Assembly (NCBI GenBank): GCA_025454075.1
Contig: JALOPD010000254.1
Coordinates: 1 to 5,290, forward strand
DNA from: Desulfobacterales bacterium
GTDB lineage: Bacteria > Desulfobacterota > Desulfobacteria > Desulfobacterales > UBA2174_A
Reading direction: 5' to 3'
Length of the DNA stretch: 5,290 nucleotides
Positions 2,796-5,290 of the stretch are shown one piece after another (position 1 is the first letter of the stretch; the number at the start of each line of letters is the position of its first letter). A program made the translations under genes and the position numbers. Below the pieces are notes generated by a model that was not told where the DNA came from, did no database searches, and was given only the letters and a program-made list of their open reading frames with translations.

Positions 2796-2927
2796 GAATT
2801 CGGAAGGCGGAAGGGGGAAGGCGGAAAAAAGCGAACCCCCCTCAACCTCCCGCCTTCCACTCTCCACCTTCCGTATTCCAACTTCCGCATTCCAACTTCC
2901 GACTTCTCTTCTCTCCTTCCACCTTCT
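2796..2927. repeat. Heptamer inverted repeat, copy A (intergenic, reaches into the hrpA stop codon)
   Basis: The left arm opens with GAATTC (2796-2801), then GGAAGGC, GGAAGGG, GGAAGGC and a decayed GGAAAAA unit (2802-2829). The middle (2830-2851) is C-rich. The right arm (2852-2907) carries in-phase NNNTTCC units: GCCTTCC, ACTCTCC, ACCTTCC, GTATTCC, AACTTCC, GCATTCC, AACTTCC, GACTTCT. It then drifts through CT-rich sequence to ACCTTCT (2921-2927), which contains two bases of the hrpA TAG (2926-2928). The first 23 bases (2796-2818) are identical to the start of copy B. GGAAGGCGG and CCGCCTTCC can pair across the centre. The right arm lacks a terminal GAATTC. Confidence 0.9.
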
Positions 2928-5290
2928 ATCCCATCCTCTCGATCCCGCGGAGCTGGTCGTCCAGCCGTTTGGCGGACATCGGCCCGGCGGTTTTCAGCTC
3001 CTGGGCGAAGATCGAGACCTTGTACTCCTCGATCATCCAGGCCAGTTCCTCCACGGCCTGACGTTTCGCGGCCGAGGACTGCGGATTCAGCGCTTCCGCG
3101 AGCCGCTTCAGCGGCCCGGCATATTTCTGCAGCGCCTGCGATTTGATGCGGTCCTTCTCGGGATCCACGAGCGCCCGGCGGGCGCGCAGCGCCAGGGCGC
3201 GCAGGTAGCGCTCGACGTGCGCCAGCCGGGCGCGGTCATAGAGCGCAATGAAGTCCTGCGGCACCAGGTGCCCGATGTCCGCCTTCAGTTGAGCGTGGAT
3301 CGTCCCCAGAGGGCCTTTGGCGCCGGCCAGCGCGGCGATCTCCCGGAAGGCCTCCGCATGGGCCTGAATGAACGCGATCACCGCATAGAGCAGACCGCGA
3401 CCGGCGGTCGTCAGGTTCGGCGCCTGAGCCGCAAGGTGGTCGTCGAAGGCCTTTTCGGAGCGCAGGTCGGCGGCAAAGAGGTCCTGGACCACCTTCTGCA
3501 CCATGGCGTCCTCCAGACGCCGGGCGCCGCCGAGCCGGTTCGCCGCCGGGTGCAGTTCTTCGGGCAGCGTCAGGCCGCGCTTCAACAATTTCACCTCGCG
3601 TACGCAGAGCCGTGCCAGCAGGGCGGCCACGCCTCGGGGGTGGGCGGCGCGCGCCTGGTCGCGGCGCGCGAACAGCTTCAAGTCGATGCGCTCCGCCTGC
3701 GCGCACAGCGCCGGATACCCCGCCCAGGCCGGGCGTTCGCCCGTGGGGCTGGTGACCACCTCGGGCAGTTCACCGAAATCCCAGCGGGTGATCCCGCTGC
3801 GCTCCCAGCGCTGCCGCGCTTCCAGCGGGATCCGCGTGGCCGCCGGCTGGCTGCGCAGAATGGCCGGGTCCCGTCCGGAGGCGAGCTCCCGGCCGTCCGG
3901 CGCCACGACCGCCACCCGCATCTTAAGGTGCGCCGGCAGCGCCGCCACCGGCCAGGCGGACGCCGGCACATCGACGCCGAAGCGCCGGTAGACGAAATCC
4001 CCCAGTGCGGAGAGCAGTGCTCCCTGCCCGCGGGGCATCTCCGCCAGAACGACGTCCACCGTGTCCTTGAGCGGCATCAGCCGGGTGCGCAGGGTCTTGG
4101 GCAGCCCCTTGAGCAGCGCCTCCACCTTCTCGCGCAGCAGCCCGGGCACGACCCAGTCCATGGCTGCCGCCGGCACGGCGGCAGCCAGCGCCGAGGGCAC
4201 CTGCAGGGTCACGCCGTCCGGCTCCGCTCCCGGTTCGAAGCGGTAGCGCAGTTCCAGCGGCTGCCCGCCGGCGCTCAGCCGCTCCGGGTACAGCCCGAGC
4301 TCCGCCGGGTCCGGGCGATAGTTCATCAGGTCGTCCGCCGTCATCCGCAGAAAGCCGTCGCCCCCGCGCTGCCGGATCAGGCGGCTGAGGCTGCGGACGT
4401 CGAAGACCGCCGCCAGCCGGCGGCGGTAGAAGTCCGCGACGGCCTCCTCGCTCGCGAACAGGTCCCGCCGGCGCAGCCGTTCCTCGATCGCCCGGACCTC
4501 CGTGGCCAGGGCCTGGTTGTGATCCATGAAAGCGAATGGTTTGCCCAGTTCGCCGGCGACCAGGGCCTGCCGGATGAAGATCTCCGTGGCGGCGTCGGGA
4601 CGGACCCGGCCGTACGAAACGATCCGCGCCGGCACGATCACCAGCCCGAAAAGGGTCACCTGCTCGGTGGCCACCACTTCCCCGCGCTTCGCATCCCAGC
4701 GGCCGTCGCGGACGCTGGCGCGGCACAGCCGGCCGCCGGCCGGCTCCAGCCAGCCGGCCTCGATGGTGGCGACGGTGCGCGCGAACAGCCGCGAGGTCTC
4801 CACCATCTCGGCCGCCACGATCCAGGCGCCGGCCTTGTTGAACACTCCCGACCCCGGGAAAATCATGGCCTCGCGGTTCCGGGCGGCCTTGTAGAGGTTC
4901 TTTTCCTTTTTCTGCGCGATGTTGGCGAGAAAGCCGCTCAGGATCGACCGGTGAACCTTGGCGAATTCGGAAGGCGGAAGGGGGAGAGAGGAATGCGGAA
5001 GTCGGAAGGCGGAAGGGGGAGGGGAGAAAGGAAGTGCTTCGTCTTTTTTATCTTTCCGACTTCCGACTTCCACCTTCCCCCCTGTCTTCATTCCGCCTTC
5101 CGCCTTCCGAATTCCGAATTCTTTCAGCACCTCCCCGATCTGCCGATGAACGTCCTCCCACTCCCGCATGCGGCGGTAGGAGAGGTAATGTTCGCGGCAG
5201 AAGCGCCGCAGCGCGCCGTGGCTGCCGGCTGCCGGCCGTGCCCTGCGGAACGCCTGCCAGATGTTGAGCAGGGTCAGAAAGTCCGATGCC
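2926..5290 (-). CDS. hrpA: ATP-dependent RNA helicase HrpA, C-terminal 787 residues (5' end outside window)
   Basis: This is the 3' part of a DEAH-box RNA helicase gene. The frame is open from the right edge (first full codon 5289-5287) to TAG at 2928-2926; the ATG at 5169 is internal. Visible residues 1-58 include SDFLTLLNIW and LSYRRMREWEDVHRQI, the block that follows the helicase core in E. coli HrpA (SDFL, VREWQDIYTQL). Residues 110-787 are the DUF3418 C-terminal region: ARN then IFPGSG at 143-148, EMVETSR at 161-167, and near the end WMIEEYKVSIFAQEL, matching E. coli WMIEELRVSYFAQQL. The helicase motifs and HA2/OB domains must lie beyond 5290. HrpA is a cytoplasmic NTP-driven RNA helicase linked to mRNA processing and to rescue of stalled ribosomes. 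Residues 59-109 are an in-frame insertion encoded by repeat copy B: first half Gly/Lys/Glu-rich, second half Pro/Ser/Leu-rich, replacing a linker of about 11 residues in E. coli. The C-terminus looks complete. Confidence 0.96.
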   Translation of the reverse strand, partial: ASDFLTLLNIWQAFRRARPAAGSHGALRRFCREHYLSYRRMREWEDVHRQIGEVLKEFGIRKAEGGMKTGGKVEVGSRKDKKDEALPFSPPPSAFRLPHSSLPLPPSEFAKVHRSILSGFLANIAQKKEKNLYKAARNREAMIFPGSGVFNKAGAWIVAAEMVETSRLFARTVATIEAGWLEPAGGRLCRASVRDGRWDAKRGEVVATEQVTLFGLVIVPARIVSYGRVRPDAATEIFIRQALVAGELGKPFAFMDHNQALATEVRAIEERLRRRDLFASEEAVADFYRRRLAAVFDVRSLSRLIRQRGGDGFLRMTADDLMNYRPDPAELGLYPERLSAGGQPLELRYRFEPGAEPDGVTLQVPSALAAAVPAAAMDWVVPGLLREKVEALLKGLPKTLRTRLMPLKDTVDVVLAEMPRGQGALLSALGDFVYRRFGVDVPASAWPVAALPAHLKMRVAVVAPDGRELASGRDPAILRSQPAATRIPLEARQRWERSGITRWDFGELPEVVTSPTGERPAWAGYPALCAQAERIDLKLFARRDQARAAHPRGVAALLARLCVREVKLLKRGLTLPEELHPAANRLGGARRLEDAMVQKVVQDLFAADLRSEKAFDDHLAAQAPNLTTAGRGLLYAVIAFIQAHAEAFREIAALAGAKGPLGTIHAQLKADIGHLVPQDFIALYDRARLAHVERYLRALALRARRALVDPEKDRIKSQALQKYAGPLKRLAEALNPQSSAAKRQAVEELAWMIEEYKVSIFAQELKTAGPMSAKRLDDQLRGIERMG
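4963..5121. repeat. Heptamer inverted repeat, copy B (inside the hrpA coding sequence)
   Basis: GAATTC bounds both ends (4963-4968 and 5116-5121). The left arm holds eight in-phase units at 4969-5024: GGAAGGC, GGAAGGG, GGAGAGA, GGAATGC, GGAAGTC, GGAAGGC, GGAAGGG, GGAGGGG. The centre (5025-5050) contains the small palindrome GAAGTGCTTC (5031-5040) and a T-run. The right arm (5051-5115) holds TCTTTCC, GACTTCC, GACTTCC, ACCTTCC, an irregular 16-base block, GCCTTCC, GCCTTCC and GAATTCC. The arms can pair imperfectly into a hairpin of about 60-70 bp in DNA or in hrpA mRNA. GAATTC to GAATTC is 153 bp, exactly 51 codons. Confidence 0.95.

Follow-up and report, generated by a model that had tools for sequence, protein, structure and literature searches.

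The hrpA gene of the window, by which we mean the whole 5,290-nt stretch of Desulfobacterales DNA analysed here, carries in frame two convergent arrays of a degenerate heptamer, GGAA-[G/T]-[G/T]-[not A] (GGAAKKB in short), at the joint where the helical region of the helicase meets the OB-fold. Arrays of this family are dispersed in a few genomes of Desulfobacterota, between genes as well as inside them, and two related genomes have one at the same position of hrpA. We consider it fairly probable that the element is a tolerated passenger repeat of the kind known from Xanthomonas, which was inherited in the HrpA joint and belongs to a variant that colonises protein loops. The feature is real, and the GGAAKKB family and its in-frame settings in protein loops seem to be new, while heptamer repeats as a kind are already known.

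The features are collected in Table 1. Among the best 120 of 5091 relatives, full-length HrpA proteins were up to 79% identical to the hrpA product. According to the Pfam matches the repeat lies near residues 57-109, in the joint that links the helical region to the OB-fold; the preliminary description had placed it directly before DUF3418, and the domain order puts it before the OB-fold instead. E. coli HrpA sequences in PDB match up to KELGI (610) and resume at 615, with four residues between. The AlphaFold model of the product had a mean pLDDT of 70 and a pTM of 0.44, with pLDDT below 50 at residues 59-189, which cover the linker and the neighbouring OB-fold; because the OB-fold next door is weak too, the model is uninformative on disorder confined to the spacer. 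Elsewhere in the window, positions 60-794 of the forward strand encode a response regulator receiver domain, with about 120 residues ahead of the domain that match no Pfam family.

Table 1. Features of the window discussed in the text (domain positions converted from Pfam residues)
Feature	Position	Strand	Remark
Second element, same GGAAKKB family	2796..2906		between hrpA stop and downstream glycosyltransferase gene
hrpA, C-terminal 787 codons	2926..5289	-	open frame; OB_NTP_bind and DUF3418; 5' end outside window
DUF3418	2950..4689	-	Pfam residues 201-780
OB-fold (OB_NTP_bind), after linker	4732..4956	-	Pfam residues 112-186
Heptamer element in hrpA: two convergent GGAAKKB arrays, short centre	4963..5121		hrpA reading: EFGIRKAEGGMKTGG...SAFRLPHSSLPLPPSEF
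Purine array, GGAAKKB units	4969..5014	+
Palindrome centre with T run	5015..5053
Opposed array (TTCC on + strand)	5054..5115	-

The hrpA frame passes through the inverted repeat without a stop, as had been described, and the palindrome of heptamers was confirmed: both arms have their autocorrelation maximum at lag 7 (0.72), the lag-7 signal of the linker was matched by none of 1000 codon shuffles, and none of 200 shuffles folded as well as the element, either as DNA (z -6.5) or as RNA (z -7.8). Removal of one stretch from GAATTC to GAATTC does take out 153 bp (51 codons) and leaves LKEF joined to AKVHRSILSG, as reported. GAATTC (positions 4963, 5109 and 5116) is its own reverse complement, so that the reported "period" is two inverted ends reading alike; genome G009 has GAAGTC and GACTTC at these sites. 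The excised form does not suit as an ancestral empty site, since 37 aa would remain, and no listed relative with the whole segment has fewer than 47 aa. Rfam gave no family at gathering score, and a phage search with the heptamer block found no match. The plasmid search (72,556 records) turned up one match, a weak one (81%, covering 31% of the query), in NZ_CP143551.1 (474255-474315), which is a 2.4-Mb Burkholderia replicon.

The closest genomes reached, G001 and G009, each 75% identical to the window in hrpA protein, carry the joint element at the same position. They also have the second element, which the preliminary description had not mentioned, at the same place (L162 4128-4245 in G001 and L179 10809-10911 in G009). 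Local alignments gave 72-84% identity for the orthologous elements and 78-82% for coding DNA. The G009 linker showed a 21-bp (three-unit) gap against both G001 and the window, probably one event because the place is the same in both comparisons, and the whole-unit change of length rests on this single event. Other linker gaps in these alignments were 9, 4, 3, 2 and 1 bp, and those between the intergenic elements 1, 2, 1, 7, 3 and 15 bp. The ends of the orthologous hrpA copies differ, and comparison of the three copies (window, G001 and G009, all with the element) revealed no target-site duplication. Since both elements share their position with two related genomes, both are inherited rather than recently inserted.

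The wider set of HrpA proteins points in the same direction. From 7994 scored candidates we obtained the 5091 relatives, of which the best 120 were listed and aligned. Among these, the closest relatives have a long, heptamer-like joint, and others, without the repeat, have a native stretch of about 14 aa (P0049 and P0051, for example). In the tree of 114 of the 120 proteins, the window falls in a clade of 19, where 14 have both arm labels, three have one arm type, one has the other and one has none. Together with the position common to G001 and G009, this speaks against recent mobility at the hrpA site. The four arm labels needed 36 changes on the tree versus a shuffled mean of 54; the pyrimidine-like label taken by itself clustered no better than shuffles (298 of 500 as low). 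The labels, assigned from peptide patterns, are imprecise: P0069 is labelled "none", and its linker reads like the Pro-rich arm.

The preliminary description had spoken of a mobile or expanding repeat turned linker. The dispersed family, the open frame and the tolerated joint stand, and recent mobility is not supported. Expansion has the 21-bp gap in its favour, but linker lengths do not change preferentially by whole units. Among 240 protein pairs with core identity of at least 80%, a set that takes in linkers without arrays, length was unequal in 135, and 15 of the 135 differed by 7, 14 or 21 aa, which is about chance. Periodicity at lag 7 (p<=0.01) was detected in 10 of 69 distinct hrpA linkers, four of them weak and perhaps not arrays (L032, L112, L120 and L128); in the comparison of lags over the same 69 linkers, lag 7 had 11 and seven other lags had 0-3. 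P0087 has a heptamer-like linker and 94% core identity to P0100, whose linker is native. We set it aside as a fresh gain because its flanks resemble P0088, and it is a probable mosaic made by recombination or assembly, as far as sequence can tell. The hrpA joint of another genome (L006/L119) holds a different repeat, SPPFLKGAGGI...NPPPFKKGGG, without significant lag-7 periodicity.

The family is abundant in few genomes. At least one four-unit GGAAKKS array was present in 17 of 395 Desulfobacterota genomes (an even sample of the phylum), and most copies lie in few of them. Four-unit GGAANNN arrays, with overlapping matches counted, numbered 48 in G001, 16 in G009, 55 in G017 and 96 in G083; among relatives, G005 had none and G006 one. 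In the loci examined, elements of at least 25 bp numbered 22, 4, 21 and 25 in G001, G009, G017 and G083, respectively, with only part of the array places located in G083 and G017 taken into the set. Their length is not fixed and runs from the 25-bp cut-off to 192 bp. In G484 (contig 22, 118812-118892) we observed a uniform GGAAGTG array with nine overlapping matches, set against the mixed arrays elsewhere, and it looks like true slippage.

The GGAA core is imposed by detection; the other three positions are strict by themselves. In 363 units from G001, G009, the window, G017 and G083, position 5 was G or T in 353, position 6 was G or T in 353 and position 7 was not A in 359. The G001 loci were initially picked with a GGAAGGC-rich pattern and completed after the GGAANNN search, and those of G017 and G083 were chosen with the GGAANNN pattern; the 212 units of the latter two genomes gave 208, 208 and 212. 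Arrays from G356, G173, G287, G253, G310, G165 and G346, found with the GGAAKKS pattern, were left out of this alphabet and included in the polarity and neighbour counts. The two-letter limit at two positions differs from what ordinary decay would give. One consequence is that the units are free of stops in every frame: all of 20000 random 12-unit GGAAKKB arrays were open in six frames, compared with 21% of GGAANNN arrays and one of 20000 random 84-mers.

Polarity is also strict. Among 126 elements, 105 had a single direction, 21 were convergent and none was divergent (two convergent loci were counted three times as orthologs, so the independent convergent ones are 17). Fold-back duplication of one arm was considered for these pairs and rejected, since the partner arm ranked first in none of 13 pairs against 39 other arms. 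For these pairs, drawn from G001, G009 and the window, 8 to 39 other arms scored as high as the partner. Pairs of G017 and G083 were scored against this same foreign pool, which is no proper test of partner similarity; there, the partner was the best match for one arm of L226 in G083. The arms have no memory of each other, and the hairpin probably just follows from two arrays of a single unit family facing one another. Within arrays, identical neighbours were not in excess (53 of 302 versus a shuffled mean of 61, with identical chains within one genome collapsed to one), and the genome sets gave 16 versus 18.3, 5 versus 7.8 and 25 versus 22.0. The order of units showed no asymmetry in G001, G009 and the window together (p 0.78) or in G017 (p 0.91), and a weak one in G083 (p 0.046).

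Conserved proteins other than HrpA carry such arrays in their loops, and HrpA itself has them at more than one place. In-frame GGAAKKB arrays occur at two hrpA joints in G001, G009 and G017. The upstream joint, from "...ELGAI" to "LTExGRMMARIPL" (L161 4013-4121, L179 8214-8266 and L104), holds single-direction heptamer arrays in G001 and G009. In G006 there is a heptamer-like stretch in the upstream joint and none at the OB-fold joint. A receiver domain has an array flanked by "IRKWE" and "PIIAMTA"; at this place the Pfam match is interrupted past profile position 69 (L209 and L223). Arrays in frame were also found between the two domains of CobB (L210), after the acyltransferase of a polyketide synthase (L225) and in an HdrA-like protein (L231, in G083), the last two named from their Pfam domains. 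When ten array-bearing ORFs were scanned, no family matched those of L162 and L173, which are probably spurious; the array precedes the domain in L164 and L166 and may lie outside the real gene there.

The same loops have other heptamers elsewhere. As judged by eye, the receiver loop holds units of CGAAATC type (L244, L249, L251 and L260), CTCAAAG/CTCAAAC type (L250), GAAGCTC type (L245) or CGCARTC type (L255 and L259), and is short and native-looking in six loci (L252, L253, L256, L257, L261 and L264). The pattern for the HdrA-like loop, applied to 25 loci, caught the loop in eight, had no match in 16 and picked a wrong stretch in the remaining one; there we saw, again by eye, a pair of GGGGTCA type, convergent, in G021 and an inverted repeat of another kind in G504 (L359 and L362), the others being short. 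The HrpA joint elsewhere has GTCAGAG-type units (L024) or a convergent GTGGATA/CCACTAC pair (L111).

Taken together, we propose that the convergent pair in hrpA, a member of a multi-copy, lineage-restricted repeat family, may have entered the joint between helical region and OB-fold before the window clade diversified and been inherited since. It would be translated into a spacer some 50 residues long, first charged and then proline-rich, that the helicase tolerates. Because the units are stop-free in every frame, an array could enter and persist in a gene, where only the total length modulo three should matter.

The many dispersed copies in few genomes, the none or one found in some relatives, the presence both between genes and in frame within them, and the exclusively convergent pairing would also suit a mobile but non-autonomous palindrome of MITE, REPIN or RPE-like type, put in place by a transposase, for example RAYT (Y1_Tnp). 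We give this a small chance, for the lengths are not fixed, most elements run in one direction only, the orthologous hrpA copies differ at their ends, no target duplication was seen among these filled sites, and several other heptamer families behave alike. As for the driver, Y1_Tnp genes, counted by family match with true RAYTs not told apart, occur in all of 8 genomes, among them G005-G008, which have at most one array, and an array was near the Y1 gene in one of 20 Y1 loci examined (of 35 matches). These genes do not track the arrays, and transposition driven by them is not supported. It is also unlikely that the arrays grew in place by replication slippage, starting from a seed that the gene contained by chance. 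Polymerase slippage is mentioned as an idea for heptamers in the part of PMC4692102 used here, the orthologs differ by gaps of 21 and 7 bp, and the receiver loop offers a stretch that resembles a seed, ATTCGGAAGTGGGAA ("IRKWE"); L244, L246 and L251 have it exactly, and close variants of it occur in L247 and L254, whose loops are short. But the exact seeds sit in loops that hold arrays, other short loops (e.g. L253 and L256) have no seed, unlinked loci within one genome share the alphabet, which is rare in relatives, and the convergent pairing is left unexplained. Slippage of single units predicts like neighbours, which are absent, so it is not supported. As means of spread, simple slippage and RAYT transposition are alike unsupported.

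The persistence of the strict two-letter alphabet could indicate selection for function, with the arrays kept as sites of a DNA-binding protein, as RNA hairpins or terminators, or as a useful spacer of the helicase. The alphabet is strict across genic and intergenic arrays taken together, the elements are kept at orthologous places with identity much like that of coding DNA, and one copy stands directly behind the hrpA stop. We regard this as rather improbable nevertheless, as relatives with native joints of 14 aa manage without the repeat, partner arms are not co-adapted and the same HrpA joint carries quite different heptamers elsewhere. Protein-level selection for a charged linker was rejected as the cause of the repeat, the intergenic copies and the mirror (Pro-rich) arms speaking against it. 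A more speculative idea, which we rate as quite a long shot, is a dedicated repeat-writing process (e.g. short-template copying, telomerase- or DGR-like) that makes convergent arrays with GGAA fixed and the next three bases drawn nearly independently (G/T, G/T, not-A). Several families would then be written into many bacteria and, being open in all frames, would supply recurrent raw material for new protein loops. Finally, purine-rich DNA readily encodes Lys/Glu-rich joints, and hrpA of G001 is split over contigs C109 and C224, whose hrpA parts overlap near residues 113-145, just past the palindrome, possibly an assembly break. That the linker is charged, low-complexity sequence arisen by chance, or an artefact of assembly, is hardly credible all the same, given the intergenic copies, the palindromy, the lag-7 specificity and similar linkers in proteins of several sources (jgi, ncbi and ena). 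A tolerated, inherited passenger repeat is the reading we prefer.

The loops of conserved proteins in which several heptamer families recur in frame are natural replicates for how arrays start, spread and shape a joint. They also advise caution, as an insertion rich in Lys/Glu or in Pro may, in proteins of this sort, be repeat DNA and not an adaptive linker. A literature search on the units, the peptides and Desulfobacterota heptamers, with most subscription journals outside its range, found no report of the GGAAKKB family or of heptamer arrays in these protein loops.

Heptamer repeats are over-represented in bacteria and mostly lie between genes, with a conjectured mechanism, according to the part of PMC4692102 consulted, which is the source for Xanthomonas and Nostoc throughout. 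There the heptamers GGGAATC and GGGGA(C/T)T have a fixed core, are dispersed genome-wide, favour four units and G-quadruplexes, and prefer sites less than 50 bp from stop codons on the sense strand. Xanthomonas has convergent pairs (70 in Xcc and 75 in Xac) and keeps 83% of the repeats in their gene context between two species, with differing lengths; coding regions are under-represented, with 7-11% intragenic, and Nostoc has more, 68% being intergenic there (PMC4692102). As far as these portions of the source describe it, the GGAAKKB family resembles this kind in that its unit has 7 bp with a fixed core, an array holds several units, its sites are many and dispersed, and convergent pairs occur (here 21 of 126, with none divergent). 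The Xanthomonas/Nostoc unit, GGGNATC or GGGGAYT with four G tracts, is different from GGAAKKB, which makes ours another family of the same kind, and our arrays differ from those described in that part in being of mixed units and in frame in loops of conserved proteins.

Other heptamers share part of these features, to judge from the parts of the sources used. Geobacter metallireducens has putative regulatory heptanucleotide elements (GGGACCG x4 in 49 copies, and MTYCTGA), likewise arrays in and between genes, with one five-repeat class drawn as a fold-back alignment; their units differ from GGAAKKB (PMC2700814). The TAACTGA repeats of Beggiatoaceae are, like ours, dispersed heptamer direct repeats of patchy distribution, but in the portion of PMC4679880 used they have one fixed unit, stops in one orientation and nearly always direct order (169 sets, one indirect repeat). 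In slippage microsatellites identical neighbours are in excess, whereas GGAAKKB arrays have no such excess. REPIN palindromes flank a RAYT gene, in contrast with the single Y1_Tnp locus near which we found an array. Palindromic amphipathic repeat coding elements are abbreviated PARCEL. These elements and the Nematomorpha coding palindromes, compared here by the openings of their abstracts, which do not mention heptamer arrays, are palindromic or repeat DNA inside coding sequence, as in hrpA (PMC2996958, PMC6649704). Rickettsia palindromic elements (RPE) come close in setting: in the sections of PMC2229807 and PMC3767692 drawn on, they lie in frame within conserved genes, occupy the same sites in orthologs and are placed at solvent-exposed positions. 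The hrpA element is likewise a palindrome in frame in a protein gene at the same site in orthologs; RPE have about 100-150 bp and terminal inverted repeats in those sections, whereas GGAAKKB elements are built of heptamers, with unfixed ends, and stand singly or in pairs.
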